Positions 15,416 to 52,319 of a stretch of 53,363 bases of DNA are shown piece after piece. This DNA comes from a virus. The number at the start of each line of letters is the position of its first letter. The first letter of the stretch is position 1. The stretch covers positions 1-53,363 of IMG/VR virus record IMGVR_UViG_3300009420_000010, one strand, 5' to 3'. The translations under genes were made by a program, and so were the position numbers. Under the pieces are notes generated by a model. The model was not told where the DNA came from. It ran no database searches and saw nothing but the letters and a program-made list of their open reading frames with translations.

Positions 15416-15811
15416 TTAGAATTTATCTTTCCATTTTCTATTATATTCTTGTTTAGCCCAATTCTCTGCTCTCTTTTCCCACTTGTTATCATCATATCTT
15501 CTAAAACCTTGTACATCAGCCATATCATCTGCTTGTTGATATTTCTTTAAGAACTTCTTCCTACCATATTTCTTAACCATATCAGCATGATGAATTTCGT
15601 GCAGAACACTTACAATAAATTCCTTGACATTTTTGTAAGATTTTCGTAAATTAATAATATCATTATCCCAATCATAATCACCATCATTATTACCCTTTAC
15701 GTTAAACTTCACTTTACTTCGTAATCCATAATATTCAACCAATTGAGAAGCAATGAATTGAAAATCAACTCGCTCCATCAGTAGATGTATTGTTGCTAAT
15801 TTAGGTATCAT
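15416..15811 (-). CDS. HExxH zinc metallopeptidase-like protein, 131 aa
   Basis: VLHEIHHADMVKKYG carries an HExxH zinc motif (about residues 90-94) on a predicted helix; a downstream acidic residue (for example in ADDMADVQG or KRAENWAKQ) could be the third ligand. Small size and layout resemble SprT- or IrrE-type minimal peptidase folds; peptidase activity is not proven. Start ATG at 15811 follows AAAGGATTAAA and overlaps the end of the phosphatase gene. No signal peptide, so it would act in the cytoplasm or on the virion. Confidence 0.65.
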   Translation of the reverse strand: MIPKLATIHLLMERVDFQFIASQLVEYYGLRSKVKFNVKGNNDGDYDWDNDIINLRKSYKNVKEFIVSVLHEIHHADMVKKYGRKKFLKKYQQADDMADVQGFRRYDDNKWEKRAENWAKQEYNRKWKDKF

Positions 15812-16419
15812 TTTAATCCTTTAAATAAAGCATCAGCAATTTTCTTTCCATACTTCTTATCAGATGGATAATGTGCTTTTCCAACTATTCTTGAGTGAGC
15901 AATCTCTTCCCCAAGTTCTTTATATAGTGTAGTATTACTTGGATTGTGTTTACTTAATATATCCGCGATTAGGTATCCTTGTATTGCATGACCACTTGGA
16001 TACGATGGTGTTTTCATACTATCAGTTTGTGTACCATTTAAATTAATACCATAGAACTCAGCAATCTGAAAGGGCCTTGGTCGATTATAATCATATTTCA
16101 AAGTCATAATCCACTTTACGGATTCGTGAATTACCTTATCAACATATTCACCAATTCCAAGTTCTTCTGCATAAGGTTTATATACATCCTTTACTTCTTC
16201 ATACTTCAGTACCAATTCTTCATTTAGTTTTAATGAACCCAAATACTTAACTTCATCTAATGTAGTAGAACTATCATTTGCGGGTGGTTGATACCGCGGC
16301 ATAATAATGTTCTCGTGAAAACTTGGTGTAGGTCTTGTAAACCTCTGTTTGTGTTTAGGCTTTATGGTTTCGGTATAAACCATAGATTGTAATTCAATCA
16401 ATTCTTTTAATTTTATCAT
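15808..16419 (-). CDS. PAP2-superfamily acid phosphatase
   Basis: About 203 residues with the PAP2/haloperoxidase signature triad: KYDYNRPRP (K-x6-RP), PSYPSGHA (PSGH, catalytic His) and SRIVGKAHYPSD (SR-x5-H-x3-D). These motifs bind phosphate or vanadate and hydrolyse phosphomonoesters such as lipid phosphates or nucleotides. There is no signal peptide and no membrane helix, unlike lipid phosphatases of the family. I place the start at ATG 16419, overlapping the preceding TGA (ATGA); a GTG at 16428 is the alternative. Its place beside holin-like genes suggests a role at the envelope, but substrate is unknown. Confidence 0.85.
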   Translation of the reverse strand: MIKLKELIELQSMVYTETIKPKHKQRFTRPTPSFHENIIMPRYQPPANDSSTTLDEVKYLGSLKLNEELVLKYEEVKDVYKPYAEELGIGEYVDKVIHESVKWIMTLKYDYNRPRPFQIAEFYGINLNGTQTDSMKTPSYPSGHAIQGYLIADILSKHNPSNTTLYKELGEEIAHSRIVGKAHYPSDKKYGKKIADALFKGLK

Positions 16420-16556
16420 CTTCCCCACTTTGGTTTGTTATCAACTTGTTTAGCTTTCCATTTTTTATGTTGATTGGCGGTCCGACCTTCAATCTTCCAT
16501 TTCTCATTTAATTTTTGTTTTCTTGCTTTTCTTGATTTTGCTGCTTTACTTGGCAC
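16416..16556 (-). CDS. Small very basic protein, 46 aa (GTG start)
   Basis: The frame VPSKAAKSRKARKQKLNEKW... reads from GTG 16554-16556 to TGA 16416-16418, with AAAGGA 8 bases upstream. It fills the gap between the holin-like and phosphatase genes, overlapping the first by 11 bp and the second as ATGA. About one third of residues are Lys or Arg, with Trp-containing repeats (NEKWK, HKKWK, KPKWG). Nucleic-acid or membrane-phosphate binding is possible. Not recognised. Confidence 0.65.
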   Translation of the reverse strand: MPSKAAKSRKARKQKLNEKWKIEGRTANQHKKWKAKQVDNKPKWGR

Positions 16557-16800
16557 TTGATTTTCCTTTAATAAAATTTAAATCATCGGTTATTCGATTT
16601 ATTTGTTCTAACAATTGTTCATGTCTCCTATCTCTTATTTCATCGCTACGATTCCACCTATCAATAAGTTTAATATTAATTTCTTCAACTTCAATAAGCT
16701 TACCTATTAACTGAGTTTTTAAGAATCTTAACATACCAAAGAACATAATAATAATAACTCCAACAATTCCCCATTCTTGTATCATAAATTTTTCTAACAT
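16546..16800 (-). CDS. Holin-like protein: N-terminal membrane helix plus amphipathic coil, 84 aa
   Basis: A single hydrophobic helix (about 10-26, GVIIIMFFGML) is followed by a charged amphipathic segment with coiled-coil periodicity (EEINIKLIDRW... LLEQINRITDDL). This resembles BhlA/UviB-type holins. ATG at 16800 is preceded by AGGAGAG. A second membrane protein gene directly upstream makes a holin pair plausible. Function is inferred. Confidence 0.6.
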   Translation of the reverse strand: MLEKFMIQEWGIVGVIIIMFFGMLRFLKTQLIGKLIEVEEINIKLIDRWNRSDEIRDRRHEQLLEQINRITDDLNFIKGKSSAK

Positions 16801-16814
16801 ACTACTCTCCTTTA

Positions 16815-17138
16815 TTAATCATCTGCATGTTCTAATAACTTATTATCATTCTCTTGGTTATTAAACCAGAAATCAACAACTTTACTAAAACTTGCTATAA
16901 ACCCACCTAACAACACCAATAGAATTTCCTTCCACTCTGGCATTAGGTCTTTTCCCTGTCCGATATAGAATAACATCAACATCAGTACACTCATAAATAT
17001 CACCATAATAATTAAAGATACGTACCACTTTCTAGCTTGACGATATTGTATAATCCCAACCAACTCTTTATTAATCCAATGTTTTTGGTCTTGGCGAGTG
17101 GTTACATCTTTTAACTTTGCTATTTTCTTATCAATCAT
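16815..17138 (-). CDS. Holin-like protein with two membrane helices, 107 aa
   Basis: Two hydrophobic segments (YVSLIIMVIFMSVLMLMLFYIG and EILLVLLGGFIASFSKVVDFWF) with a charged N-terminus and C-terminus. GGFIASFSKVVDFWF resembles the last segment of the 3TM phage holin family. Start at ATG 17138 overlaps the upstream TGA (ATGA); a TTG at 17150 also opens the frame. Probable pore former in the inner membrane. Confidence 0.6.
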   Translation of the reverse strand: MIDKKIAKLKDVTTRQDQKHWINKELVGIIQYRQARKWYVSLIIMVIFMSVLMLMLFYIGQGKDLMPEWKEILLVLLGGFIASFSKVVDFWFNNQENDNKLLEHADD

Positions 17139-17869
17139 TTCCAATCCCAAATTTTCAACGCATTATATGTCACACCAAATCCAATTACGGGTTCAGTTAA
17201 TCCAGTATTTTTATCATATTGTACTCCCACAAATGGCCCTATACTAAACTGATTTCTTGGTGGTTTCAGTTTAATGGTTTTTGCTGTACCACCATTCATC
17301 ACCACTCGATTCCCATCAGATTCCCAAACTCTATCTTCGTTATATGCTAAAAATTCATACTTCCCAACTTGGTCAATTATAGGTGCACCAAATGCTAAAT
17401 TTCCATCAAACCCAACATTAGTTTCTGAATCTACTATTGCGTTATTCTGTAATTTATATCCCATTCCACCAAACACTTTCATATAAGCATCTTGTGAACC
17501 AAACTCAAATTGAAACGGAATAGTATTCATATATGCTAATCCCAATTCTATCCCAAGACTATCGAGGTCATCTTTCAGATTTTTAATTTTCTGATTATAC
17601 TCGGTATTCCATTTTACTTGTTCGTAATATTTTACTTGTAAATTTTGAAGTTCATTGTGTTGGTCATTTGATAATACCCTCAAATACTCAACCTCTTGAT
17701 TTAAAGTATCTATCTCAACTTTGTTGACAGTTATTAATCCTTCTTGTCTACCTGAATCTTTGGTTAAAAAATCCATTTCTTGTTGTGCGTAATAATATCT
17801 TATACCCACAACAGCAGATATTATCAAGATGTTTAGTACAACACCAAAAATGGCATCTTTCTTAATCAT
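17135..17869 (-). CDS. Membrane-anchored coiled-coil protein with beta-rich C-terminal domain, 244 aa
   Basis: An N-terminal membrane helix (about 7-24, FGVVLNILIISAVVGI), a long coiled coil (about 30-105), then a beta-rich domain ending in alternating strands (FSIGPFVGVQYD... PVIGFGVTYNAL). The anchor-plus-periplasmic-coil layout is like an inner-membrane spanin, but the C-terminal domain looks like outer-membrane strands. It could bridge inner and outer membranes. Start ATG overlaps the preceding TAA (TAATG). Not assigned to a family. Confidence 0.6.
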   Translation of the reverse strand: MIKKDAIFGVVLNILIISAVVGIRYYYAQQEMDFLTKDSGRQEGLITVNKVEIDTLNQEVEYLRVLSNDQHNELQNLQVKYYEQVKWNTEYNQKIKNLKDDLDSLGIELGLAYMNTIPFQFEFGSQDAYMKVFGGMGYKLQNNAIVDSETNVGFDGNLAFGAPIIDQVGKYEFLAYNEDRVWESDGNRVVMNGGTAKTIKLKPPRNQFSIGPFVGVQYDKNTGLTEPVIGFGVTYNALKIWDWK

Positions 17870-18396
17870 TAGTCAAGTGTAGAGAGTGCATCATCAATAG
17901 CTTTTCTTACTGCTCCACCCAACTCTGTTTTGTTGAATGGTACATCTTCAGAGATTTGTAATCCTGTCGCTGTAATTGTTGTTGCAATTTCACCCTCACC
18001 TTTAGATGATTTAATGATACCTGATTTGGAATTTTCCAACTTAACTAATAACCTAACTTCTGTTTTAGTACTTCTACGATTAAATAATCCTACAATACTA
18101 AATGCTTCATTTGGTTTTCCAAGATACACTACTTCTACCGATGCTACGAAATCTGAATTATTATCATCAGTTAAAATATACCTTGTATCTGAAAATGCTT
18201 CTTGTAATAGTTGTCGAATACCAAATGTTATTCTTTCATCTTCAACTGTCACCCTATCAGAAACATCTACAAACTCTGATATTCTCAAAGTTGGTCTAAC
18301 TAAATCTTCACCCACAATTGCAGGTGTTGGTAAATCCTGTCCTTTTATGATTCCCATTATTATGAACCCTAAAAGAAATTTCATTACTATTCTCAT
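17869..18396 (-). CDS. Exported CsgG-like assembly/transport protein
   Basis: 175 residues from ATG 18394-18396, chosen because AAGGAG precedes it and a signal peptide starts there (MRIVMKFLLGFIIMGIIKGQ); the open frame extends upstream into the preceding gene. The mature part has the alternating strand-helix pattern of CsgG-type proteins: FGIRQLLQEAFSDTRY, SDFVASVEVVYLG, EVRLLVKLENSKSG, then GGAVRKAIDDALS at the C-terminus. CsgG-family proteins form outer-membrane export pores or accessory rings. No lipobox is visible, unlike the second CsgG-like protein at 19412. Family call is by pattern only. Confidence 0.55.
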   Translation of the reverse strand: MRIVMKFLLGFIIMGIIKGQDLPTPAIVGEDLVRPTLRISEFVDVSDRVTVEDERITFGIRQLLQEAFSDTRYILTDDNNSDFVASVEVVYLGKPNEAFSIVGLFNRRSTKTEVRLLVKLENSKSGIIKSSKGEGEIATTITATGLQISEDVPFNKTELGGAVRKAIDDALSTLD

Positions 18397-18406
18397 TTTA
18401 TTCTCC

Positions 18407-19402
18407 TTAAAAGTAAGTTCCAAATAATAAACTATACGTTTTACTTCTTTCGCCATAATCATTTACGACCGTATTTATACCCATTGAGAAGCCAAGATTC
18501 AATTTGAATGCTTGACCCACTTTCCAATCCATCGATATGGTTGGAAACATTATTATCGGACTTCTTAATAATAAATATCGTTCACCTGAATTATTACCCT
18601 CATAATATCGCATTATTGTGTATGCCATATAATTACTTATTAACAAATCCACATTACGAAATTTAAGTGGATAATTCATTCCATACACCACACTAATATT
18701 AGCAAAATTATATTCACTAACATTACCATACGTTCCAGTTATAACAATTGCTTCAGCCAATGGTTTTTGTAGGGATTTTGCGTAGGATATTGAAGCTAAC
18801 CAATCCCACCCCTCAAAAGTTTCAAAGGCTAATCCAGTACCATTTATTTGTACATTTTGTTTCTTAGCCTTAAATTTAAATCCTTGTCCGTATGTTACCG
18901 AACCCTTCCTTAAATCATCTGTAAAATTAAAATTACCATCATGTGTTCTACTACCATCAAAACTCTCCGAAGTATAAACACTATTAAATGAAGTTATCCA
19001 GTCGCCAGTTAACGAATCTCTTGTAGTACTCTGAATTGCATAATTCATTTGACCAGCATCAACCGAGATATCATCGGTTTTACTAAATTGTGAAGCAGCA
19101 CTACTTGCAATAACAGATGATAATATTTCTTCAGCAACTCGTACTGCACATGGAAATAAATCTTCAAAATCATTATAAACTGATTCTGCCCACGCTTCTA
19201 ATTCCCCATTTAAAACTTGTTCAAATGTAAAATATCTGGTACGATTATAATAAGTAACTTGAAATCCACCACTATCATCTTCTTGTAGTGAATACGACTC
19301 CTTAATCGTTGTCTGATTGCAGGGGTCAATATAACTATAGAAGAACGACTGGGCAGATATTGTACTACAAAGTAATACTAAGTATATTAATTTCTGCCAC
19401 AT
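18407..19402 (-). CDS. Putative outer-membrane beta-barrel protein, 331 aa
   Basis: Signal peptide MWQKLIYLVLLCSTISAQ, then an N-terminal region with two Cys (DPCNQTT and LFPCAVRV) that could pair in the periplasm. The C-terminal ~200 residues are alternating aromatic strands with the final residue Phe (SLLFGTYF), typical of the beta-barrel assembly signal. It lies between the two CsgG-like genes. The family is not recognised; candidates are an export channel partner or a surface receptor mask. Confidence 0.6.
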   Translation of the reverse strand: MWQKLIYLVLLCSTISAQSFFYSYIDPCNQTTIKESYSLQEDDSGGFQVTYYNRTRYFTFEQVLNGELEAWAESVYNDFEDLFPCAVRVAEEILSSVIASSAASQFSKTDDISVDAGQMNYAIQSTTRDSLTGDWITSFNSVYTSESFDGSRTHDGNFNFTDDLRKGSVTYGQGFKFKAKKQNVQINGTGLAFETFEGWDWLASISYAKSLQKPLAEAIVITGTYGNVSEYNFANISVVYGMNYPLKFRNVDLLISNYMAYTIMRYYEGNNSGERYLLLRSPIIMFPTISMDWKVGQAFKLNLGFSMGINTVVNDYGERSKTYSLLFGTYF

Positions 19403-19411
19403 TCATTTCTT

Positions 19412-20053
19412 TTACCAACCCTTACGGTCTAATGCTCGGATTGCATTAACAACAGCAGTTTCCATTGCTTTGTTACCTGCAGAACTTAAAGAACTTTGAT
19501 TAAACTCCATGTTAGGATTCATTAAAAATCCTTGGCCTGTAGTTTTAGCTCTACCTTGTCCACTACCAACAACATACTGGGTGTTTTCTAAATTAACTAA
19601 TTTAACTTGAATACCTATAATGGTTTCATTACTTGTTATTATTTTCCCACCTTTTATATCCTCAGTAAGATTTACTGCGAAATCATAAATGGTAACATAT
19701 CCCCAATATTTAGCTACATCAATTTTAGCGTTGTTTGCTTTTAAATCATTCAACATCATTAATTGATTATCTCTATCAGCCTCAATAAGATTGAATCTAC
19801 CTGTATAAGATGCCACATTTTCCATTTCTTGGGTAAGACCAAATGCAACCCTTTTTTCTGCAAGTTCTGGATATCTTTCTTCAAGTTCCTTATTAATCTT
19901 TAACTCTACGATTTTTAATCCGTCTACTTTGGTAATTTCTAATTCATCTACCGATTTCTGCTTTTCATACTCACCAACATATTGTTCAGTCGATACGGAT
20001 GCAGCACATCCTATCAACCCCATTAATAACAATACTGAGAATATCTTATTCAT
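19412..20053 (-). CDS. CsgG-like lipoprotein
   Basis: 213 residues with a lipoprotein signal peptide and lipobox LIGCAA (Cys at about 16). The mature domain has RVAFGLTQEMENVASYTGRFNLIEA, a helix carrying DRDNQLMMLNDL, WGYVTIYDFAVN, IGIQVKLVNLENTQYVVGSG and a final helix GNKAMETAVVNAIRAL. This order is that of CsgG/FlgO-type outer-membrane assembly proteins, where the protein inserts as an oligomeric pore or acts as a periplasmic accessory. Its start overlaps the end of the preceding gene by 4 bp. The call rests on motif order read by eye. Confidence 0.65.
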   Translation of the reverse strand: MNKIFSVLLLMGLIGCAASVSTEQYVGEYEKQKSVDELEITKVDGLKIVELKINKELEERYPELAEKRVAFGLTQEMENVASYTGRFNLIEADRDNQLMMLNDLKANNAKIDVAKYWGYVTIYDFAVNLTEDIKGGKIITSNETIIGIQVKLVNLENTQYVVGSGQGRAKTTGQGFLMNPNMEFNQSSLSSAGNKAMETAVVNAIRALDRKGW

Positions 20054-20406
20054 TGTTGTCTCCTATTTGACTTATTTTTACCATTATGGCCACCACCCCT
20101 TTTGCCTTTAGGTTTAGTGTATTCACCACTTTTTTTAACTTTACGTTTACCACCCCAAGTTCTCATTGGAACATCAGTTCCTCTTTGTGTTCGGTATCCG
20201 TATTTGTAATTTAACGCTGTAGATTGATGCCACAAATTTGGGTATCTATACCAACTATATCCTCTACCAAAATTAGAATCTTGATAAATTATTATATACT
20301 CGGCACTAACCTTTGTACTATCAGTTGGATAGACTGGTTTCATATCTACATTAGATATCCCCACCCCAATCACAATACCTAATAGTAATTCGAGTAATCC
20401 TATCAT
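20050..20406 (-). CDS. Small membrane-anchored protein with very basic C-terminus, 118 aa
   Basis: A hydrophobic N-terminus (MIGLLELLLGIVIGVGIS) acts as a signal or anchor. A Tyr/Trp-rich middle (YSWYRYPNLWHQSTALNYKYGYR) precedes a tail rich in Lys, Arg and Gly (KRGGGHNGKNKSNRRQQ). AAAGGA precedes the ATG. Such a tail could bind DNA, phospholipid head groups or lipopolysaccharide. Not recognised. Confidence 0.6.
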   Translation of the reverse strand: MIGLLELLLGIVIGVGISNVDMKPVYPTDSTKVSAEYIIIYQDSNFGRGYSWYRYPNLWHQSTALNYKYGYRTQRGTDVPMRTWGGKRKVKKSGEYTKPKGKRGGGHNGKNKSNRRQQ

Positions 20407-20421: not shown

Positions 20422-20832
20422 CTATCTAAAATCAGATAACGGGTCTTTTAATAATTTTTCCAATCGTTTAATCTCACCTTGTAATTTACTAATCTCATTT
20501 TCGAGTTTAATAATATCACCATCATAAGATTTAATCTTTGGGTTTTTTAGTTTATCAACTTTCTCACGAAGATATTGTAGTTCACTATCGTACCCTGCGA
20601 ATATCTCATCATACTTATTGAATTTTTCTGTTACGATTTCGATATCACTTGCATCTGCAAACCCTGTAACTACTTCTTCCAACGAATCAATGCGGGCAGT
20701 AAAACTATACCAACCAGCAATAGCGGTAGAAAGAAAAGTAACAATAGCAACAATGTTATTAATCGATAATCCAAACTTTTTCCCTTTAATCTCTTCAACG
20801 AGATTCTCTGCATCAACTATGTCTTTAGCCAT
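20422..20832 (-). CDS. Membrane protein with long C-terminal coiled coil, 136 aa
   Basis: A cytoplasmic N-terminus (MAKDIVDAENLVEEIKGKKFG), one membrane helix (about 24-42, INNIVAIVTFLSTAIAGWY), then heptad repeats (LQYLREKVDKLKN; IIKLENEISKLQGEIKRLEKLL). Layout resembles i-spanins or other membrane tethers. ATG follows AAGGAGTTAGTT. Confidence 0.6.
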   Translation of the reverse strand: MAKDIVDAENLVEEIKGKKFGLSINNIVAIVTFLSTAIAGWYSFTARIDSLEEVVTGFADASDIEIVTEKFNKYDEIFAGYDSELQYLREKVDKLKNPKIKSYDGDIIKLENEISKLQGEIKRLEKLLKDPLSDFR

Positions 20833-21787: not shown

Positions 21788-24418
21788 CTATTTCACGACC
21801 GTGAATTTGTTTGCTTTAATTCTCTTATCTGTCTCAAGAACAAATATATAAACACCTGGTTCTAACGATTGGTGTTGTTGATAAACACTTTCTTCAGGTA
21901 ACCAAACACTTGGTTGGTTATTAAAATCAAATGTATGAATACCTTGTGAAACTGATTCATCTAATAATGTACCTACATATTGTCCCATTGAATTTAATAT
22001 GTATATCTTTACATCGGTTAGTTCATCTACAAAGAACTGGAACTTAGTAGTTTCATCAAATGGATTTGGATAGTTATAAGTTAGTTCATCATCGTTTGGT
22101 TCACCACCACCGAATGCCCAATACTTATTCCATACCAATACTTTACCATCTTGTCTATCTACTAATAAGTCATTACCACTTGGGTCTCCCGCGGAATACT
22201 TTCCTACGAATTGCACATCTGCTTCAGTCCATTCCGAATCTGGAAAGTTTGCTTGAAAAATCATATTCAACGCAATCATTGGTTCATCTATCCAATACGT
22301 TTCAGGTGCGTTACCTGGTGAGTAATCCATACCACCAAAGGAAACTTTCTGATACCCAATATCATCTGCTTCATGTACGTTTACATAAGTAAACCATGGG
22401 CCTGGAAGAACATCCGTTTTCATATCTATAAATTTTAATTGATTAGTATTAAACTCTACTTCAAACTCAAATCCAGCAACTTGAATTGCTTTTAATTGTT
22501 CAGGTGTAATATATAATGGAACTTCTATTTGGTCACCACTTTGAACCCTGACAGTTGAATCTGCTGGCATTGTAAAAAACACATCGGGTGTAGATGATAC
22601 AATTTTATTTGCCCAAGTACCTGGTGCAGTACCACTGCCCCATCTATAAAATGTATTTCCGTTTACATTAATGTATCCATCACCATCTGTTTCATCAACT
22701 TTAGTACCAGTTGCATTAATATCTCCTGTAAAGAAATATGCCCAATCAGGAAGTGTAACATCTGGATTAGCATCACTACCATATGTAGATATACCTGCAC
22801 CTAAGTTTAAACTTAATGTATCTAATCCAGTCTGAATTGTATTCATAAGTGGGTTGATAACTTCTATCTGTCCAAATTGTAATGTTGCACTTTGGTCAAA
22901 ATCTGCATCAGGAAAGACTGTAAATTCATACTTCTGTGCTCCTAAACTCTCATACCAAACATAAGGAAATGGTTGATTATTTTCTCTTAAAGTATCTATC
23001 GTACCCCAATTCTCGTAAGAGTTTCCATTTAAGTGAGTGTAGTTTTCAAGTATCTGTGATGTATATGCCCATAAAAAATATGAGTCATTTAATTGAAATA
23101 CATCATCTCCATCAACATCTCCGATAAAGTATTCAACTGAATTTAAAGTATCAACTCCCACTACGGATTTAAATTTATTAGACTGAAAATTGAATGAGGC
23201 AATTGCATCATTAAGATTAGTAATTGCGTACCTATCAAGTTCGAGTTGAGTATGAGTTTCTATATTATCCTCAGCATCTGGTGGGAAAAATGAAACACGA
23301 TAATAATTGTTTCGTGGTAATTGAATATTAAAATATCCTCTATCATCTGTATATGTCGAATCATAATAACTAATTCCTAAGAATCCCTCACCTGGTAAAG
23401 TTTGCATTGCAGTTGTAGATTTATCATCATACCAAAATGTAGAAGTATGGTCACCAATTACATCATCGGATAAATCCTCATCTGCAGTATTTACATCATT
23501 AGGTATGCCTTCTATATTATACCAAGTGGAATAACTTGACGGATTACTAGCATCCAATTCAAATTTAATTTTCCAATATGGATAAGTTTTATCATCATCA
23601 GTACCATTACGTTGAGCGTATCTAAAGAATCCCTCAACATCTAAAAGTTTTGGATGAAGTGAAATATCTCCACGAGCTCCACCATCATAAGTTTCTTCTG
23701 TTCCCCAGTTACCATCGATGTAAACCTTGTAATCTAATAGATAGTCGTCTGAAGCGTAAGTGTAGTACCCCATTCCACCACTATAAAGTGTTGGTATTCT
23801 AAATGATTGTGGTTGAAAATTATCCACCACATCATCTATTTTAAAATTTAATTTTATTAATTGTTTCTGTACACCATTACCACCACCAAACTTAAAAGTG
23901 TTTCCGTTGTGTGATACCATAGTAATTCTTAACCAATCATATCGTGCATTCGCTTCTGATATTTCACTATTTGCAGTTTGAATTGAATCTATATACCCAA
24001 CATCAGAATAATGAACTACTTCATATGAGTAATCCGCACCCGCTGTAGAATCTCCCTCGGTTGCAGCTGATAAGTGAGAACCTTTTATTACTTCAGTATC
24101 ATTGTGGTCCCAATCGATTAAATCATTATCAAAGATTATATCTAATCTGAATGCAGTAATATCTGCACCATTATCATCAAGTGTAACTTCCATAGTCAGT
24201 ACACTATCTCTAAATGCATCAAAGTTATTGTTATATAAAGCGGGATTATTTGTATCATCCGCAAGATATGTCTGTAGTTGGAAAGTATCTGAGTCTCTCC
24301 ACCAAGTTTTTGGTAAATTATATTCACCTGTTTGCTTGATTCGAATTATTGGCTCTTGTGCCCACGAAAGGGAAAGTACCAATAATAGAACCATAGACTT
24401 TAAATATTTATTAAACAT
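21788..24418 (-). CDS. Secreted cohesin/dockerin-like protein with T9SS C-terminal sorting domain
   Basis: 876 residues. Signal peptide (MFNKYLKSMVLLLVLSLSWAQ), then beta-rich domains. Two dockerin-like Asp-rich loops occur: GDVDGDDVFQLNDS (~431) and DETDGDGYINVNG (~570). A cohesin-like domain follows (about 617-730; VRVQSGDQIEVPLYI, FEFEVEFNTNQLKFI). The last ~95 residues are a type A T9SS sorting domain: YNYPNPFDETTKFQF, VKIYILNSMGQYVGTLL, GIHTFDF, LEPGVYIFVLETD, ending KFTVVK. Known proteins with this domain cross the outer membrane by T9SS and attach at the surface. The gene is framed by phage baseplate genes upstream and envelope genes downstream, so it is phage-encoded. ATG is preceded by CTGGAG. 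Confidence 0.88.
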   Translation of the reverse strand: MFNKYLKSMVLLLVLSLSWAQEPIIRIKQTGEYNLPKTWWRDSDTFQLQTYLADDTNNPALYNNNFDAFRDSVLTMEVTLDDNGADITAFRLDIIFDNDLIDWDHNDTEVIKGSHLSAATEGDSTAGADYSYEVVHYSDVGYIDSIQTANSEISEANARYDWLRITMVSHNGNTFKFGGGNGVQKQLIKLNFKIDDVVDNFQPQSFRIPTLYSGGMGYYTYASDDYLLDYKVYIDGNWGTEETYDGGARGDISLHPKLLDVEGFFRYAQRNGTDDDKTYPYWKIKFELDASNPSSYSTWYNIEGIPNDVNTADEDLSDDVIGDHTSTFWYDDKSTTAMQTLPGEGFLGISYYDSTYTDDRGYFNIQLPRNNYYRVSFFPPDAEDNIETHTQLELDRYAITNLNDAIASFNFQSNKFKSVVGVDTLNSVEYFIGDVDGDDVFQLNDSYFLWAYTSQILENYTHLNGNSYENWGTIDTLRENNQPFPYVWYESLGAQKYEFTVFPDADFDQSATLQFGQIEVINPLMNTIQTGLDTLSLNLGAGISTYGSDANPDVTLPDWAYFFTGDINATGTKVDETDGDGYINVNGNTFYRWGSGTAPGTWANKIVSSTPDVFFTMPADSTVRVQSGDQIEVPLYITPEQLKAIQVAGFEFEVEFNTNQLKFIDMKTDVLPGPWFTYVNVHEADDIGYQKVSFGGMDYSPGNAPETYWIDEPMIALNMIFQANFPDSEWTEADVQFVGKYSAGDPSGNDLLVDRQDGKVLVWNKYWAFGGGEPNDDELTYNYPNPFDETTKFQFFVDELTDVKIYILNSMGQYVGTLLDESVSQGIHTFDFNNQPSVWLPEESVYQQHQSLEPGVYIFVLETDKRIKANKFTVVK

Positions 24419-27395: not shown

Positions 27396-30300
27396 TTACT
27401 CTACTTTTAATTTAGAATCACCAGGTTCTTGTGTTACCAACCTTGAAGGTGTAGTAATCGTTATTTCAACTGGGTCTAATCCATCTATCGTGTTGTTTTT
27501 TGTTAAATTGCTACCTTTATAGAATAACCTAAATAGTGATGAATCAAGTGCTACACTCGTGTATGAACTTCTTTCGTATGATGCACTAAATTGGTAATTC
27601 CCATTGTACTCTGTATGATATCCATATCCCTTTGCTATTGAATCCGATAATGAACTCGTATAGTAAGGAACTTTAATATCATTATGTTCTGATAATCTTG
27701 AAGCAGTGATAAAAGGTTGCACCGCTTCTTCAAATGTTATATCTATATCACCGAATGTAATACTTGCTGTTGCATAAAGTGATTGGAATGGTGTTCTTGG
27801 GTCTATCTCTGCTATCTTATTTAATGTTGGATTCCCAAGTATTCCAATTGAACCACTATCCATTGTATATAAATTAATTTCACCCTCATATAAAGGTAAT
27901 GTACCCGAAAGTGTAAATGGATTAGGTGCTGCAGAACTACTTAACCTACTTGATAATTGTATTCCATCTCCAAATTGATTAGCATTTTCATAATATGTAT
28001 TTTCGAAACTTGGTACTTTACCCACTACCTGTTTACTTCTCTCTAAAATATTTGGTTCTATTAATAAACCAAGTGTTGCATTTGTTCTTGCTGGGACCAT
28101 ATTCCTTAATTGACTCCAAATACTTCCATCAAAGAAAGTTATGATTCTCATATAATCCCAAAAGTTATTTGAACGACTATACTTTTTCCAATACTCTCGC
28201 TGTACTCTCTCTAATCCTCGATAGGTATCAGCATATTGGTCTCTTGGGTCACCAATTTCATTATCAAGGTTTATATCTGCTAAGGAATACATTATATCTT
28301 CATTCACTACATCAGTAGGTGAAAAGAATATACCAAGTTTATTACTATCTGTTGGTGCAAAATCCATTGATGACTGTTCAACTCTAATGTTTGATGATAA
28401 GTTACCACTTAGTTTAGTTGCCTCACTTCTAATCTTTGTTGCGTTTCTTCTTTGAGGTCCAATGTTTGGAACTCTTAATTTTTCTTGGTCTACTAAACTT
28501 CTAAATGGATTACCACTAAAGTTAACTGCACTTGCACTTGTATGATAAGATGTTTTATATGATTTATCATCTACCGATTCTGGTAAAGTATTTAAATCAG
28601 TATTATCATTTATTGGTAATCTAAATATCATATTATCATAAGCAGAACTTGTAGTATTACCATTATAACTTTTTGGTGCTTGGACATGATTATCAAATAC
28701 ACTTTGTGATAATGGTTCACTCCACAATCTAAACTCCATCATTGAACCACTAAACCTTGTACCAAATTCTCCGTTACCACCTATATAAAATGTACCATCA
28801 GTATGGAACGCATTATTAAATGCTGCTCCAGCAGAAGCATTTCCATCTATACTTACACTCTCACTTGTTTGATATAAAATAACTTGCCTTGTAGCATCAT
28901 ATTGTTTTGATGTTAACTGATATGTTATATCTTGTGCGTTTGCATCTGTTACTAAATCTAATCCACTCTGTGATACTCGTGTTAACATCACACTCCACAT
29001 ATCATTATTATAAAATGGTTGTAGTGATGATGTCATAAATTGAATACCTGTTGATGCAGATACACTAAATCTTAACTTACCATAAGAATCGGTTGCTCCG
29101 TTATCTTGTAATTGAATTGCAAAACTATGATTACCAACACCTTTCTGAACAATTGTCATATCCTTTGAAGTGGGTGCTCTAAATCTAAATTCTATAGTTT
29201 CTGGTTTAATTCCACTCGTACCATCATCTTGCCAAGGGAATTTTAAATACTCACTCGATTTAAAATCCGCAGCATAACTAAATTTTCGTTTTATTTCATA
29301 ACTAACACTATCATTTAAATCTGGTCCACCATACTCTCGGATTCTTAGTATTGAACTTGGAATACCATAACAATTTATCAACCCTTTCATCGCTCGTTGG
29401 TTACCCTTGTTCTTCATAAAGAACGGCATATTAGCTAAAATTCGTTTCCATATCTCTTCGGTTAATTCTTCTTGTGGTGATTCATATTTATCTGCACCAT
29501 CTGCGGTTTTACCTAACAAGTATTCGGGTAAGATAACTAAATCATTTCCGCTATCAACTTCAAATCCCATACTCTTCGCTACTTCGCGAACTATATCTTT
29601 TGAAATGCCCTCTGATAATTTATTACTCTTTTCATTTATATCCGTGAAGTGTCTAATATAAGACCATATCTCATCAAATTGTTGTCCAGTCATATCCATA
29701 AAATCTAAGAATACTTTATTCTCTGTATCACTCGCCACATGAAGTGGTAAATTATTTACTAAACTATTTTGGTTATAAGTATCAAATTCTTTTGCATATC
29801 CAGTCCAAGTATCAAACCAAGTAGTGAATGTTGAACCACTTGTATGTTCTAACGTAAAGTCTGTACCATCTGCTCTTGAACCACTTGTCTTAGGCCATGA
29901 GGCAGTATAATATTCACCAACTGAACTTGTAGCGTAACTTGATGAGACAGTATATAGATAATTTTCATATGGGTCGAAACTATTTACCACTTGACGTTTC
30001 TTCATATTTATACTAGCTCGTGTATCTGCTGACGAAGATATGTTTATTAAATTATGTGAATCTGTTTTATATCCCTCTATTAATGTTATTTTCTTTTTAA
30101 AATTTCGTAGTCTATTTTCTGCTCCACCAAAGTTAATAAAGTTTCCAAACCCATAATCCGTTCGGTCTAAACCAATTGCATCAGTTCGTTTAGAATAATC
30201 AATTGATAATTGCACATCTAATAAACTACTTGAATGAATATAATTTGTAATATCTTCCTGAACTTGTGTATCAGTTCCAATTAAATCATCATACTTTTTA

Positions 30301-32414
30301 TAATTAGTACTTCTAAAATTGATTGGATTTGTTGTTGAGTTTAAATTTGGAACTCTTAAAAATAATACTTCAGGAGTTTCTTCTACAAACTTTGTTAATT
30401 TTACCATATCTTCATATGGCTCCATTTTTTCTTCTACGAAATAAACTAAATCATTTTTCTCAATCGTTTCTGGTAATGGTGAATATGTTTTAATATATCG
30501 TGCAGTTCTATCTGCCACATCACGTATCGGTAATTTCTTATCACTATCAGGAACTGATGATTTGGGTGCATCAAGTACATTTATACATAAGTGATACCCC
30601 TCTTTAGTAACCATGTAAGTATTTAATCTGGTTACTTTATTTTTTCTAAAAGTTAAAAACATATCGGTGAATACATCATTAAATCTATCTTCACCACTAT
30701 GGTCTGCTTTATTTGCTCCTTCTTCATATGAAGTATCAACTCTTATTCTATTATAATCCATTATCTCAACAACCTTAGCTGTAAAATCAATGGGTACTTG
30801 AGTGAACACATCAATTGGAACTAATTCGTTTTCAAATGTTACGACAGTTTTAAATTTTAGAATAGACTCTTCATCAGTAGCAAAATCTTCAATTATTTCT
30901 TTTGTAATTGGTCTTGGTCTTTCATCAACAATATATTCGTTATCTGGTTCAAGTGGTGATGCCGGAAGTCTATCTGCCGGAACATTTTCATCTTCTGGTA
31001 TGTTATTAATTACTTCTGCAAGTACTTCTTCAGCAGAATTATCAGTATTGACTGTGGTACTTGAACCGCCTCCGCCACTATCTTCAAAATCTTCAGATAA
31101 TCTTAACATATTAATTCTTTTATCTCTATTCTCTAAGAAATGAGTAATACTATTCCACTTACCAAGTGTTGCAGATGTTACATTATTAGCAATAATAGTA
31201 TGATGTTTATCCAGTATTAGATTCCAAACATCTAATGCTCCAGCTTTAAACTCAGTACCAACTTCATTTGCTAAGTACCATTTACCTTGATGTTTAATTG
31301 GGTGATGGTCTGTAGTGGTAAGATTTTTGTAACGAACTAATTTATCTCCATAAGGTCGATTATCCTTAACTACCTTTAATACTTTTGCGTAACCTTGTTC
31401 GGTTTTAACTTTCATACCAGGTCTCATCATCTTGATTGGAATGGTACGATTATTACTTAATTTAATTTTTGTATCCCCAGTAAAACAAACACTTCCATAC
31501 TCATCATTATCTCTATAATCTTCGTAATCTTGGTCAGGACCGGGTGTTGCTTCTAATATTTCTCGTACTGCAACAGGTTCTTTATCGATAGTAGTTTTTA
31601 CAATATCATTGAATAATACTTTTTTATCCTTAGGTCTTGGAGAATTTCTATTTCCCTTATCAACTAAAACTTGAGTTTCTTTCTTAACCTTAATCTCTAC
31701 CATTTTAGTTTCGGTTAATGTGTATTCATACATACCCTTAATAATAATATCACCACCCACCATAGCATCTGTGAACCCTCTTTCGGATTGTCCAGGAGTA
31801 AGTATTAAAACATTACCATCAGTTTTGTCAAATCTGATTGTCCCAGCACCAGAACCACCTTTTCTATTCGGAACATAAACAAAATCTTTATTTATACCAG
31901 CAAAATTCTTACGATATGGTATATTATTAATTAATTGAATATCTACCTTTACTTCATTTTTTGATGGTGAAACTTCTTTCACCACATATTTCATTTCTTT
32001 TGCATATAACTCTTCTAAAGTTTGATTTGTTGGTGTTTCCCCACCTTTGAAAAATCTTGTTTTGCCATTGATAACCTTAGTGGATATTTTTCCCATATTG
32101 ATGTATCCCTCATCGTTCACCATAATGGTTTTCTTTTGTCCAGCTAATCTTCTAAGGAAAAGATACTTTACTTTGAACTCACCTGAATCATATCCTAAAT
32201 CTCTGATGTGGCCACCAATATCTAAATCAATTGTATTATCATTACGGAATAATACATCACCCGTACTAAGAATATCATCTTCCAATAATGTATCTTCCAT
32301 ATCATAGACATAGAAATGTATAAAATCATTAGGGTCTCTACCAAAACCACTAAACAATCTTTTTGGATATTCTAATTGTTCTCTATCTTTTTCAGTTAAG
32401 CCAAATTGTAACAT
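27396..32414 (-). CDS. Large baseplate/tail-tip protein with Hint and LamG-like domains
   Basis: 1,672 residues. A Hint (hedgehog/intein) domain is inserted at about 310-412: it begins CFTGDTKIKLSN (block A, Cys310), has TTTDHHPI (block B) and ends NLILDKHHTIIANN. A flexible acidic, Gly/Ser-rich stretch follows. A LamG/concanavalin-like domain spans about 1068-1241 (IEFRFRAPTSKDMTIVQKG to MMEFRLWSEPLSQSVFDNH). The C-terminal part is Ser/Tyr-rich. Its position among wedge genes suggests a baseplate-periphery or tail-tip role, with LamG for carbohydrate contact. The Hint end lacks the usual His-Asn followed by Cys/Ser/Thr, so full splicing is doubtful, while N-terminal cleavage stays possible. 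Confidence 0.8.
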   Translation of the reverse strand: MLQFGLTEKDREQLEYPKRLFSGFGRDPNDFIHFYVYDMEDTLLEDDILSTGDVLFRNDNTIDLDIGGHIRDLGYDSGEFKVKYLFLRRLAGQKKTIMVNDEGYINMGKISTKVINGKTRFFKGGETPTNQTLEELYAKEMKYVVKEVSPSKNEVKVDIQLINNIPYRKNFAGINKDFVYVPNRKGGSGAGTIRFDKTDGNVLILTPGQSERGFTDAMVGGDIIIKGMYEYTLTETKMVEIKVKKETQVLVDKGNRNSPRPKDKKVLFNDIVKTTIDKEPVAVREILEATPGPDQDYEDYRDNDEYGSVCFTGDTKIKLSNNRTIPIKMMRPGMKVKTEQGYAKVLKVVKDNRPYGDKLVRYKNLTTTDHHPIKHQGKWYLANEVGTEFKAGALDVWNLILDKHHTIIANNVTSATLGKWNSITHFLENRDKRINMLRLSEDFEDSGGGGSSTTVNTDNSAEEVLAEVINNIPEDENVPADRLPASPLEPDNEYIVDERPRPITKEIIEDFATDEESILKFKTVVTFENELVPIDVFTQVPIDFTAKVVEIMDYNRIRVDTSYEEGANKADHSGEDRFNDVFTDMFLTFRKNKVTRLNTYMVTKEGYHLCINVLDAPKSSVPDSDKKLPIRDVADRTARYIKTYSPLPETIEKNDLVYFVEEKMEPYEDMVKLTKFVEETPEVLFLRVPNLNSTTNPINFRSTNYKKYDDLIGTDTQVQEDITNYIHSSSLLDVQLSIDYSKRTDAIGLDRTDYGFGNFINFGGAENRLRNFKKKITLIEGYKTDSHNLINISSSADTRASINMKKRQVVNSFDPYENYLYTVSSSYATSSVGEYYTASWPKTSGSRADGTDFTLEHTSGSTFTTWFDTWTGYAKEFDTYNQNSLVNNLPLHVASDTENKVFLDFMDMTGQQFDEIWSYIRHFTDINEKSNKLSEGISKDIVREVAKSMGFEVDSGNDLVILPEYLLGKTADGADKYESPQEELTEEIWKRILANMPFFMKNKGNQRAMKGLINCYGIPSSILRIREYGGPDLNDSVSYEIKRKFSYAADFKSSEYLKFPWQDDGTSGIKPETIEFRFRAPTSKDMTIVQKGVGNHSFAIQLQDNGATDSYGKLRFSVSASTGIQFMTSSLQPFYNNDMWSVMLTRVSQSGLDLVTDANAQDITYQLTSKQYDATRQVILYQTSESVSIDGNASAGAAFNNAFHTDGTFYIGGNGEFGTRFSGSMMEFRLWSEPLSQSVFDNHVQAPKSYNGNTTSSAYDNMIFRLPINDNTDLNTLPESVDDKSYKTSYHTSASAVNFSGNPFRSLVDQEKLRVPNIGPQRRNATKIRSEATKLSGNLSSNIRVEQSSMDFAPTDSNKLGIFFSPTDVVNEDIMYSLADINLDNEIGDPRDQYADTYRGLERVQREYWKKYSRSNNFWDYMRIITFFDGSIWSQLRNMVPARTNATLGLLIEPNILERSKQVVGKVPSFENTYYENANQFGDGIQLSSRLSSSAAPNPFTLSGTLPLYEGEINLYTMDSGSIGILGNPTLNKIAEIDPRTPFQSLYATASITFGDIDITFEEAVQPFITASRLSEHNDIKVPYYTSSLSDSIAKGYGYHTEYNGNYQFSASYERSSYTSVALDSSLFRLFYKGSNLTKNNTIDGLDPVEITITTPSRLVTQEPGDSKLKVE

Positions 32415-42226: not shown

Positions 42227-43066
42227 TCATTTTATTGAATTTAAATAAGAACCGCCGATATTCCAAAATAAGGTTTTACCTTTTAAGTTCTGTATATTAT
42301 TCTCTAACCAATACCATTGTTTCTTGTCCCAAAATTCGTTACAATCAAATGGTACTTTATAGTCATCCATCATATCATCAAATGCATATGGTGATTTTTC
42401 GAGTAGTATGTTTTTTAAATCACCTGCGTGATTCTCATTTAAAATCTTTTTTGTTGATGAGAATGCACTCATCGTGATTGAATAAACTTTTTTTGATTTG
42501 GCAGATAATTTCCACCAATCATCATTGTATTCTAAAAACTCTTTTATTAATCCACTTGCAGTAACACCACTTCCGATACTAACTATAAGATTATCATATT
42601 CATTTTCTTCTAAAACTTGTTTCATTCTCTCACCCATGTAATTAATATATGCTGGATGATTAAACGCGTATGGTAATTGTTGCCAACCATTTTCTTTTGC
42701 TTGGGTGTTTAATTTATTTTGCATAAACGCCATCATGTTGGGTCTCATAGGATGTAGAGTTCCCCCATTACCCACAACTCTTTCTAATAATATTTGTGGA
42801 AACCTTTGGGTATCTGGATAAGCAGAAATAAATTCTATTCCATATTCTTTACATAAACCACTCAGTACCCAACCTGTCCAACTTCCATATACTGATAAAT
42901 GTGTTAGTGGTTTTGTTTTATCTATATCAGCACTCTCTAATATTCTTCGGATACCATCTATCTTTGCCCATCGTGGATAATTAATACCATCACCAACTAA
43001 ATCATCTCGTTTAACATCTACATCAATACCACTTAGTTTATAGGTTTCTATTGGTGTTTCTATCAT
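42227..43066 (-). CDS. PLP-dependent enzyme, ACC deaminase/D-cysteine desulfhydrase-like fold
   Basis: About 279 residues. Fold-type II PLP pattern: TPIETYKLSGIDVDVKRDDLVGDGINYPRWAKIDGIRRIL, where the Lys in WAKIDG is the candidate Schiff-base residue, then SVYGSWTGWVLSGL, and the Gly-rich phosphate loop SIGSGVTASG near 170. Usual relatives deaminate or desulfhydrate small amino acids. It is last in an overlapping four-gene operon with an amidotransferase, a thymidylate-synthase-fold enzyme and a methyltransferase. Start at ATG 43066 gives an ATGA overlap; ATG 43072 is possible. Confidence 0.75.
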   Translation of the reverse strand: MIETPIETYKLSGIDVDVKRDDLVGDGINYPRWAKIDGIRRILESADIDKTKPLTHLSVYGSWTGWVLSGLCKEYGIEFISAYPDTQRFPQILLERVVGNGGTLHPMRPNMMAFMQNKLNTQAKENGWQQLPYAFNHPAYINYMGERMKQVLEENEYDNLIVSIGSGVTASGLIKEFLEYNDDWWKLSAKSKKVYSITMSAFSSTKKILNENHAGDLKNILLEKSPYAFDDMMDDYKVPFDCNEFWDKKQWYWLENNIQNLKGKTLFWNIGGSYLNSIK

Positions 43067-44568
43067 GCCCATTTATTAAATCCACTTTCAGTTCCACTCA
43101 AAGTATCTCTCATACCTTTATGTTTGAAACCAAATATTTTTTCAAAGTTATCTCCTATACAATGAAATAGTTTTTTTCTATTTCTAAAATTTAAATCTCT
43201 ATCATTAAGAATTAAATCTTCTATATAGTCTTTAAAGTTTGTTCCCTTTTGAAATGCTCTTTTCTCTTGGTCACATACTTCATCTGGTAAGTGGCCACGA
43301 AATGCTTCAGCAAGTGGTTTCTTCCATTGGTTACCACCATTATCCAATACTGGCTGATTCAAGTTTGTGGTGTAATTTAAAAAATCCAAATCGAAGAATG
43401 GACATCTTAATTCGATTGTTCCATAGTTCATAAAAATATTATTACCACGAAGTAAATTACCATAGTATTGTTTTTCAAACATCTTTTTTCTTACATCACT
43501 CCAGTCAGGTTTCTTACTGAACATTCTTACCATACCATATGAACCATACGCCTCATCAGAACCTTCCCCACTAAACGCAACCTTAACCCCATCCTTTGCC
43601 ATTTGTTCTGCAACATAACTTTGTAAAATACCAACTTCCATTTGGACTGTTGATGGATATTCTATAACCCTAATTGTTTCTAAAAATTTTCTTTTTATTT
43701 CTTCTGGGTCTCTTGGTATCTCAACCTCAACCAATGGTACATCAATATGTTTTGCAACCATTCTTGCAAACATTAAATCTCTTGAATCTTCATCGAACTT
43801 GACTGTATAAGATACTATATCAGGTACTTTCTTACTTAACAAATAAGTAATCACACTTGAATCAATTCCACCACTCAAACAAGTTGCAACCTTAACATCA
43901 CTTAATAATCTTTTTTCAATAGCGTTATCCAATAACTCATATGTTTTTTTATTCACTTCATCTTGGTCAAATTCTTTTACTTCATATTTCGAAAAACTAA
44001 AATAATAATCTTTCTCAATATGTATTGTTCCAGTTTCAGTTCCTATTGTAACCACCGAATTTTTTGGTACAAACTTACATTCTGCTTGTGGTAATATTTT
44101 TAGTATGGATTTCATTTCAGATGCTACTATAATATTCGTATCATTATTGTAAATATATAATGGTATCTTACCAACCCAATCTCTCGATAGAATTAATTGA
44201 TTAGTCATTGTATCGTGTAGTGCAAAACTAAACATACCATCTAATCTTGGTAACTCATTCTCCTTATACAAATATAAAATTATTTCCGAATCACTATTAC
44301 TAAAAAATCTATAACCTCGTTCTTCATATTCTTTTCTTAATTGTGGATAGTTCCATATCTCACCATTAACTACAAGTGCATAATCATTCCATACGAATGG
44401 TTGATTCCCATCTGAACTAACATCATTAATACTTAAACGATTATGTCCAAGTATAACATTACCACTCTGATAAATTTCTCTGTTGTCTCTACCTCGATGT
44501 TCAATCTCCTGTAACATCACCTCTACATCATCTTCTGTATAACCAATAGTACTAACTATTCCACACAC
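43063..44568 (-). CDS. Asparagine-synthase-like glutamine amidotransferase
   Basis: 501 residues, two domains. The class II glutaminase: Cys2 (MCGIVSTIG), HNRLSINDVS, LVVNGEIWNY, SNSDSE and RLDGMFSFALHD. The synthase: PP-loop ATCLSGGIDSSV (~229-236) and AFSGEGSDEAYGSYGMVRM. All catalytic motifs of AsnB are intact, so it should release ammonia from glutamine and use ATP to activate a carboxylate. AsnB-like genes occur in several T4-like phages. Here the overlaps on both sides suggest a pathway role beyond asparagine making, for example amidation of a modified base, but the substrate is not visible. Confidence 0.9.
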   Translation of the reverse strand: MCGIVSTIGYTEDDVEVMLQEIEHRGRDNREIYQSGNVILGHNRLSINDVSSDGNQPFVWNDYALVVNGEIWNYPQLRKEYEERGYRFFSNSDSEIILYLYKENELPRLDGMFSFALHDTMTNQLILSRDWVGKIPLYIYNNDTNIIVASEMKSILKILPQAECKFVPKNSVVTIGTETGTIHIEKDYYFSFSKYEVKEFDQDEVNKKTYELLDNAIEKRLLSDVKVATCLSGGIDSSVITYLLSKKVPDIVSYTVKFDEDSRDLMFARMVAKHIDVPLVEVEIPRDPEEIKRKFLETIRVIEYPSTVQMEVGILQSYVAEQMAKDGVKVAFSGEGSDEAYGSYGMVRMFSKKPDWSDVRKKMFEKQYYGNLLRGNNIFMNYGTIELRCPFFDLDFLNYTTNLNQPVLDNGGNQWKKPLAEAFRGHLPDEVCDQEKRAFQKGTNFKDYIEDLILNDRDLNFRNRKKLFHCIGDNFEKIFGFKHKGMRDTLSGTESGFNKWA

Positions 44569-47791: not shown

Positions 47792-47825
47792 TTTAAATAT
47801 AACCTTTTCATTTTTTATTGTTTTG

Positions 47826-48166
47826 TGGAGCTGGCGGGAGTCGAACCCGCGTCCAGTCTGCTTTTTCCAAAGGGTCATTCACAACTTAGTGAGATTCCAA
47901 ATAAGTAGTTATCTCCAACCCACTTCACCATTTTACACAGAATGGCTTAACTGAAAGATTAAGTTTAACTCCAACCTATAAAAAGAGTGGTCTACCGATG
48001 TCGACATCTTATCTTACTATCGGTGTCATAAGTAAGATGTTACGCGTAAGCGTAAGTTAAATTAGCTTGTGTGCCAATTAATCAAAGTGAACCTTTTGTA
48101 GCGAGTCTTGTTCAAACTCCGTTGCACCCAAGTGTCAAATAACACCTGTCGATACCAAGCAGCCCC
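47826..48166 (-). ncRNA. ssrA: Transfer-messenger RNA (tmRNA)
   Basis: A 341-nt one-piece tmRNA. The 5' end GGGGCUG pairs with 3' CAGCUCC, followed by discriminator A (47826). The T-arm reads GCGGGTTCGACTCCCGC, and the 5' part has GGTATCGACAGG, the usual tmRNA D-like segment. CCA is not encoded. tmRNA with SmpB frees ribosomes stalled on broken messages and tags the products for degradation. No smpB is visible in this window, so it would rely on host SmpB. It lies between small phage genes on the same strand. Confidence 0.95.
48040..48066 (-). other. tmRNA tag reading frame, deduced tag ANLTYAYA
   Basis: Within the tmRNA, the frame GCT...TAA encodes ANLTYAYA and then stops. With the tRNA-borne Ala it would give AANLTYAYA. 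It begins with Ala-Asn as in common tags and ends in Tyr-Ala rather than the common Ala-Ala. The resume codon is inferred from position and the Ala-Asn opening; a second frame (AHKLI then stop) is possible but less tag-like. Confidence 0.65.
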
Positions 48167-50325: not shown

Positions 50326-50916
50326 TTATTTTCCTATACAACATTTTTTGAACTTCTTACCACTACCACAAGGACAAGGTTCATTCCTGCCCACGGCCTT
50401 TTTACTTATAATAGGTTGTGGTTTATCTTCCCTATCAAATATTGTTAACCCATTTAAATGGTCAATCTCATGTTGAACACATATGGTTTCTAACAATCTT
50501 AATTCGTCATTTTCGGCATCATGTTTTTCCCAACTACCTTTACCATCACTTCCACTTAATGCTCCACTAAACACCCAACCACTCTCTTCCTGTGCGGTTT
50601 GTATATGTATGGTTTCATATCGTTTGGTATGACAACCTTTCTTTGGGAAAGATAGACATCCCTCATAATAAGGTATCTCATTTTCTTTTGAAAGTATTTT
50701 TGGGTTAATTAAGATAATCGGTTCGCGAACATTAAGTACAGCAACAGCAGCATCAATACCAACTTGATTAGCAGCCAACCCGATGCCATCCCCTCGTTCA
50801 TTAAGTATCTTAAATAGTTCTGCGGCAATTTCAAGTCCTTCTTCAACTGAAACCTCTCTTAACTTTTTGTGGATAACTGGGTTATCGTGTTTAAAACAAT
50901 CAACTACCTTATTCAT
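50326..50916 (-). CDS. def: Peptide deformylase fused to a C-terminal SEC-C zinc motif
   Basis: 196 residues. The three deformylase motifs are intact: [10 protein letters not shown] (~43-50), EGCLSFP (~84) with the metal Cys, and [10 protein letters not shown] (~147-153) with the two His and Glu. The enzyme removes formyl from nascent N-terminal Met. Residues ~178-193 are a SEC-C motif, [16 protein letters not shown], the zinc module at SecA C-termini that binds ribosomes or SecB; I do not know it as a usual deformylase tail. Phage deformylases are known, mainly from cyanophages. A 28-residue membrane protein gene overlaps its start. Confidence 0.92.
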
Positions 50917-52222: not shown

Positions 52223-52245
52223 TTTTCATCTCCGTTTATATTTTG

Positions 52246-52319
52246 AGTGCTGGGTCGGATTTGAACCGACGAACAATGGATTTGCAATCCACCCCATTAG
52301 ACCACTCTGGCACCAGCAC
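52246..52319 (-). tRNA. tRNA-Cys (GCA)
   Basis: 74 nt. Acceptor GTGCTGG pairs with CCAGCAC; discriminator U as usual for tRNA-Cys. Anticodon loop reads TTGCAAA (anticodon GCA). T-arm GTCGG/TTCAAAT/CCGAC. CCA is not encoded. It overlaps the end of the SWIM gene by 23 bp. Confidence 0.93.

Follow-up and report, generated by a model that had tools for sequence, protein, structure and literature searches.

Several described systems share single features with the gene block considered here. According to the accessible part of one report, twelve PelC lipoproteins of the PelBC system ring the stalk and the tetratricopeptide repeat (TPR) domains of PelB (PMC12141448). Pelagiphages and the OM43 phage Melnitz carry CsgG together with CsgF, and in the portions of the reports available the proposals for these phage proteins range from sibling capture to a lysis role (PMC9004378, PMC7029224, PMC9599517). 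Cryophage, as far as the available part of its description goes, encodes cargos of the type IX secretion system (T9SS) with type A sorting domains (PMC7468147), and T9SS sorting domains are mentioned near the BACON proteins of gut phages in the accessible sections of another study (PMC6949934). The block described here is carried by a marine phage and lies in the 53,363-base IMG/VR virus record IMGVR_UViG_3300009420_000010, which was analysed over its whole length and is called the window. The window encodes baseplate wedge, primase and SbcC-like proteins and therefore belongs to a tailed phage.

The block combines a T9SS-tagged cargo (T876), a member of the PorV/PorQ family (P289), a lipoprotein with the CsgG fold (G213), an outer-membrane barrel (B331) and a second exported protein (G175) that is homologous to G213, in a fixed order. 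The consecutive minus-strand trio G213, B331 and G175 was already pointed out in a preliminary description of this DNA and is confirmed. All five proteins start with export signals, as judged by eye, and therefore probably act in the envelope of the host rather than as part of the virion. Related blocks occur in two remote groups of phages, termed window-type and immuto-type, the latter after Flavobacterium phage immuto. We read the block as an envelope module of the infected cell, made of a ring and a barrel, and consider this proposal about equally likely to hold or to fail.

G213 and the CsgG fold

G213 carries the lipobox L13-I-G-C16-A-A, as noted in the preliminary description, and a lipobox-like motif is found in 13/13 window-type and 8/15 immuto-type rows. 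The AlphaFold2 model, built from 28 relatives, has a predicted local distance difference test score (pLDDT) of 70.2 and a predicted template modelling score of 0.64, and its elements follow the order strand-helix-strand-helix-three long strands-helix. PelC (5t0z, E 1e-7) is the first Foldseek row, and CsgG (4uv2, E 3.9e-7) is also among the top rows. In the VIA comparison, in which 999 chains were aligned, CsgG entries occupy rows 1–8 with Z-scores from 13.2 to 11.9, the best alignment being that to 4q79_A (Z 13.2, 166 residues, 3.6 Å). Below them are found Cj1090c (11.1), XCC0632 (10.8), PelC (9.7) and FlgT (9.4). Because of these Foldseek and VIA rankings, the CsgG core fold predicted by the model is regarded as supported for G213. 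The first Foldseek rank, together with VIA Z-scores of 9.4–9.7 for the PelC chains (9.4 for 9h80_A), also places G213 with the PelC-type fold.

The preliminary description suggested that the two CsgG-like proteins could form an outer-membrane channel; a channel of the CsgG type now appears doubtful. With an E-value limit of 10, the Pfam CsgG model PF03783 is without a hit in the window record, in immuto and in one metagenome-assembled genome (MAG). The C-loop and TM1 motifs of curli CsgG are present in three curli-type references (L070, L075 and L093) of the 11 CsgG rows examined and in 0/28 G213 relatives, all 28 of which contain the motif YP[ED]L..[KA]RV. At the positions of the pore hairpins, the G213 segments comprise 26 and 29 residues and those of L070, the only reference measured, 32 and 41; the model contains no second TM2 strand. 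Since the Pfam match and both motifs are missing and the hairpin segments are shorter, a CsgG-type pore is not supported, although a short hairpin is still possible; the membrane part could instead be supplied by B331. By analogy, a PelBC-like arrangement of a lipoprotein ring and a separate barrel would fit better than a CsgG pore.

The profile comparison with the CsgG family, suggested as a check on the preliminary description, leaves Pfam CsgG unmatched and gives a weak match for G213 (1.4% in one comparison and 27% in another, with a score of 32 vs <=20.1 in 40 shuffles). No significant family was found for G213, G175 or B331 in Pfam, PHROGs or NCBIfam. In a comparison with sequence profiles of the PDB, G213 had no match, and the hits of G175 (E 0.6 at best) and B331 (E 2.3) were weak and to unrelated proteins.

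G175, a relative of G213

The open reading frame (ORF) of G175 spans positions 17869-18462 (197 residues) and overlaps B331 by 56 bases. Its start is most likely at about 18396, where the export signal begins in the sequence, giving a protein of 175 residues. The similarity between G175 and G213 claimed in the preliminary description is borne out by hhalign (97.5%, E 7.6e-12), and more so with deeper alignments (98.5%, E 2.2e-15), the score being 100 vs <=19.8 in 40 column-shuffled controls. When their profiles are compared with those of the remaining families in this region, neither protein exceeds 4.6%.

The strand-helix order of CsgG, also claimed for both proteins, is seen for G213 in its model and presumed for G175 by way of homology. 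The direct match of G175 to curli- and HfaB-type CsgG depends on the alignment, with 72.5% (E 3.3e-5) for the window-type alignment and only 5.4% for a wider one. As this match is weak and unstable between alignments, the likeness of G175 to CsgG is taken to come mainly from its homology to G213.

The B331 barrel

The 331-residue protein between the pair was described as barrel-like, and its AlphaFold2 model, built from 30 rows, agrees with this. Eleven strands cover residues 138-330, with a pLDDT mostly of 70-84 for residues 141 to 260 and a mean of 60.5. The nearest solved barrels in the VIA comparison are CymA (Z 16.4), EspP (16.3) and OmpG (14.7), and the model supports the assignment of B331 as an up-and-down outer-membrane barrel of 11–12 strands. 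PelB (9h80_M, Z 12.4) is found in the B331 list, and PelC of the same entry (9h80_A) is in that of G213. The top Foldseek rows include FapF, a barrel for amyloid secretion. A search of BFVD gave one row at E<=0.001, a phage protein with a peptidase domain, followed by various phage porins.

The motif Y.[YF].DPC and a second PC are found in 30/30 B331 rows, and the N-terminal domain that contains them is probably disulfide-bound. In the immuto-type rows, long linkers rich in N, S, T and G are present.

T9SS cargo and PorV/PorQ-family protein

Upstream of the trio, the C-terminus of T876 matches the T9SS sorting-domain model TIGR04183 with 26.8 bits (cut-off 23), and so do 26/26 of its relatives at E<=0.01. 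The corresponding Pfam model, PF18962, remains under its cut-off (18.2 vs 27). Together with a signal peptide seen by eye, T876 has the features of a T9SS type A cargo. The cohesin-like domain of T876 is likewise under the Pfam cut-off (21.9 vs 24.1) and is matched by 24/26 relatives at E<=0.01. The form NYPNPF of the sorting tag hints, in our assumption, at a non-Bacteroidota host of the Fibrobacteres-Chlorobi-Bacteroidetes (FCB) group, for example Marinimicrobia.

P289 matches NF033709, the PorV/PorQ family, with 90.1 bits, and 22/23 of its relatives match at E<=0.001. PorV from the T9SS translocon structure is also hit by the P289 profile (E 7e-9, with 67 profile positions aligned). P289 is not recognised as PorV itself, as its score with the T9SS equivalog NF033710 is 48.9 vs a cut-off of 250.

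Relatives and conservation of the block

Window-type relatives comprise 36 IMG/VR loci found by the G213 search and 38 by alignment, together with two MAG contigs, which came from 154 candidate stretches of a pattern-based genome scan. These contigs, labelled Flavobacteriales and Gammaproteobacteria (L066 and L067), are judged to be misbinned contigs of the window phage group. The immuto-type relatives are immuto itself, which infects Flavobacterium sp. LMO8, and 113 IMG/VR stretches, of which 80 were kept. In immuto the block is gp14-gp19, where gp15 carries a cohesin (5.9e-9) and a T9SS tag (2.4e-8), gp16 has one transmembrane segment (by eye), and gp17, gp18 and gp19 correspond to G213, B331 and G175. 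The immuto G213 is 30% identical to that of the window over 98%.

The T9SS cargo, G213, B331 and G175 occur together and in order in 25/25 window-type and 60/60 immuto-type loci. These counts include the loci with enough flank; 12/37 window-type and 20/80 immuto-like loci were excluded for short flanks or cut genes. Since the iterated hidden Markov models of G213 and G175 cross-match (the same ORF in 18/148 loci), separate ORFs were demanded for the count. A weak match to the T876 model lies between B331 and G175 in two loci. The counted loci form 8 window-type and 20 immuto-type G213 clusters at 95% identity, and many of them are therefore close kin. As the order is kept in every relative with enough flank, the trio goes beyond chance. 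P289 is restricted to the window-type loci, where it is present in 25/25.

Outside these groups few matches were found in the records searched. A tblastn search of 50,697 phage records found G213 in four immuto records only and found no match for T876, B331 or P289. Among 395 Bacteroidota genomes, the deep G213 profile (A4) hit one, the MAG G001, through a contig judged to be misbinned phage, and the B331 profile (A6) hit G001 and one weak 27-residue match. The A1 search of 296 Bacteroidota genomes likewise returned G001 and one weak match, to a 61-residue lipoprotein start.

C-type lectin matches are found in exported proteins beside the block of immuto-like phages (L135:11025-12692, L124:10737-13034 and L063:8782-9780), and these proteins have similar C-terminal ends, as judged by eye. 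Their position beside the immuto-type block fits surface display too.

Proposed function and alternatives

In the proposed envelope module, G213 would form a ring at the periplasmic side of the outer membrane, as PelC does, B331 would supply the membrane barrel, as does PelB, and G175 may be a second ring or cap, acting as a periplasmic partner. T876 would be exported by Sec and then by the host type IX translocon, and displayed on the cell surface. Its C-terminal tag would be handled by the host PorV or, in the window lineage, by P289 as a shuttle. The most likely net effect would be an altered surface of the infected cell, serving superinfection exclusion or adhesion, which we hold to be possible though somewhat short of probable; that the module has a role in opening the outer membrane at lysis seems rather unlikely. 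As cultured immuto carries the block, a role in exclusion, adhesion or outer-membrane opening is directly testable.

A more specific proposal, put forward tentatively and with clearly less confidence than the module itself, is a virus-encoded outer-membrane machine for a T9SS substrate, with its own cargo, a PorV-like shuttle, and a CsgG-fold ring with a barrel by which the cargo would be anchored or assembled at the surface of the infected cell. If true, it would be the first viral partner protein of the T9SS, and the CsgG fold would here serve a new purpose; to our knowledge, no earlier viral T9SS partner is known.

Several points weigh against an envelope module of this kind. The ring and all contacts among the block proteins are predictions. 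The models of G213 and B331 are of moderate quality, and B331 resembles every simple outer-membrane barrel, with CymA, the autotransporter EspP and OmpG outscoring PelB, so that PelB is not singled out as its relative. A recognisable lipobox is missing in 7/15 immuto-type G213 rows. The PorV/PorQ score of P289 sits at the cut-off of the family (90.1 vs 90), which we take to include members without ties to the T9SS, and P289 is missing from the immuto-like loci (0/60). Finally, the T9SS of the host of the window phage is presumed.

The most serious alternative, though an unlikely one, is a lysis module, in which the CsgG-fold protein, the barrel and the inner-membrane coiled-coil neighbours open the outer membrane at the end of infection, either as spanins or by forming a gated pore, the latter being similar to the pinholin-like idea published for the Melnitz CsgG. 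FCB-type outer-membrane spanins were also suggested in the preliminary description and are weakly and only indirectly supported: neighbours anchored in the inner membrane and the endolysins that many immuto-like contigs encode close to the block speak for them, and the lack of a lipobox in part of the immuto-type G213 rows and the invariable company of a T9SS cargo speak against. An ORF for an endolysin of glycoside hydrolase family 19 (GH19), recognised by phrog_181 and PF00182, lies in the fetched flank of 48/80 immuto-like loci, mostly 0.3-2.2 kb away and on either side, and GH19 enzymes of flavophages are regarded as endolysins in the available part of one report (PMC8776804). A Phage_holin_4_1 protein in L163, a two-transmembrane protein common to both phage groups (TM111), and an inner-membrane anchor adjoining an outer-membrane lipoprotein also favour lysis. 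However, the remaining 32/80 immuto-like loci have no GH19 endolysin in the fetched flank, that of cultured immuto is about 27 kb from the block, and phrog_181 has no match in 13 window-type records, which are possibly fragments. The same lipobox gap in immuto-type G213 counts here as well, and the T9SS cargo and PorV are left unexplained.

Slightly less probable still is the secretion of a curli-like or other polymer, with G213, G175 and B331 as a separate pore through which a different product leaves the cell, in the manner of the curli clusters of pelagiphages. The CsgG fold of G213, FapF among the best Foldseek rows for B331 and the linkers of immuto-type B331 would suit such a pore, but Pfam CsgG is unmatched, the curli C-loop and TM1 motifs are absent from all 28 relatives, and no fibre gene is recognised in the block. 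That host genes were acquired by chance and are of no use to the phage is very improbable. Cohesin, the T9SS tag and PorV are indeed bacterial families; chance pickup is nevertheless disfavoured because the block is conserved, in strict order, in two remote phage groups, and the single Bacteroidota genome of 395 with a G213 relative has it on the contig judged to be misbinned phage.

Gene map and other features of the window

Most neighbouring genes of the block are separated by -16 to 15 bases, which suggests one operon. G213 and B331 are spaced by 9 bases and B331 and G175 by 10; G213 overlaps the preceding gene by 4 bases and G175 overlaps the next by 1.

Table 1. Genes of the block and its flanks in the window (TM, transmembrane)
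Gene	Position	Strand	Description	Basis
T876	21788..24418	-	Exported protein of 876 residues; cohesin-like domain, with a T9SS type A sorting domain at the C-terminus	
P289	20912..21781	-	PorV/PorQ-family outer-membrane protein; restricted to the window-type lineage	
CC136	20422..20832	-	One predicted TM segment and coiled coil	Sequence, coiled-coil matches
S118	20050..20406	-	Small exported or membrane protein, variable	ORF; present in few relatives
G213	19412..20053	-	Lipoprotein of 213 residues with predicted CsgG fold	AlphaFold2 model, PDB comparison, lipobox
B331	18407..19402	-	331 residues: signal peptide, small Y.[YF].DPC...PC domain, linker, predicted 11–12-strand barrel	AlphaFold2, PDB comparison
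G175	17869..18396	-	Second CsgG-like exported protein, without lipobox	Homologue of G213
CC244	17135..17869	-	Putative inner-membrane anchor, coiled coil and C-terminal domain	Sequence; weak DUF6808 match
TM111	16815..17150	-	Two-TM holin-like protein (by eye); common to immuto-like phages	
TM84	16546..16800	-	Small one-TM protein	ORF, sequence

CC136, which may be anchored in the inner membrane, is retained in 25/25 window-type loci and seen in these only, and matches to CC244 are likewise confined to window-type loci. TM111 is 32% identical over 74 residues to L135:8710-9057 (E 1e-17 for the pair). A PAP2-family phosphatase (Pfam, 1.1e-9) is encoded directly downstream of the block at 15808-16428 (-).

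Elsewhere, the window encodes a transfer-messenger RNA at 47825-48166 (-) with the tag peptide GTQANLTYAYA, and a cysteine transfer RNA (tRNA-Cys) at 52245-52319. A large tail-region protein (27396-32414, -) contains an intein or Hint-like stretch, CFTGDTKIKL..., and genes similar to asparagine synthase (43063-44568) and peptide deformylase (50326-50916) are present, both on the minus strand; these three were recognised by eye.

Comparison with known systems

CsgG (PDB codes 4q79, 4uv2 and 6si7) is similar to G213 in its predicted fold, and in the window lineage G213 is also a lipoprotein. Unlike CsgG, G213 has no Pfam match and no C-loop or TM1 motif, and its hairpin segments are shorter. The curli system differs further, as the phage block has two paralogues and a separate barrel, and no CsgE, CsgF, CsgA or CsgB is recognised in it. 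TraT, a decameric surface exclusion lipoprotein of the outer membrane (PDB code 9fs5), aligns to G213 with Z 8.5; this match is low-ranking, and a common fold is no proof of a common function.

The PelC-PelB complex (PDB code 9h80) is an analogue of the proposed arrangement: twelve copies of PelC, a lipoprotein whose fold is related, make up a ring under a barrel that is a separate protein, as the accessible part of its description states (PMC12141448), and both chains are in the structural lists of G213 and B331. The barrel of PelB, however, is 16-stranded and its TPR domains keep the ring in place, while B331 is predicted to have 11–12 strands and no TPR is seen in it.

The curli clusters (type VIII secretion system) of pelagiphages and Melnitz are likewise CsgG-type genes borne by marine phages. 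In the available parts of those reports they consist of recognisable CsgG and CsgF, whereas the block considered here belongs to other phage groups and brings remote relatives together with a barrel and a T9SS cargo. Cryophage shares with the window a phage-encoded T9SS type A sorting domain like that of T876; its cargos are of the enzyme and PA14-domain kinds, and the accessible part of its description mentions no PorV-family or CsgG-like partner (PMC7468147). Searches of the open-access literature brought up no description of the combined block, nor of a PorV-family protein from a virus. Phage curli pores and phage T9SS cargos are known separately. That the combination of CsgG-fold pair, barrel and T9SS cargo keeps its order in two remote groups of phages suggests a common strategy for remodelling the envelope of hosts that have a T9SS.

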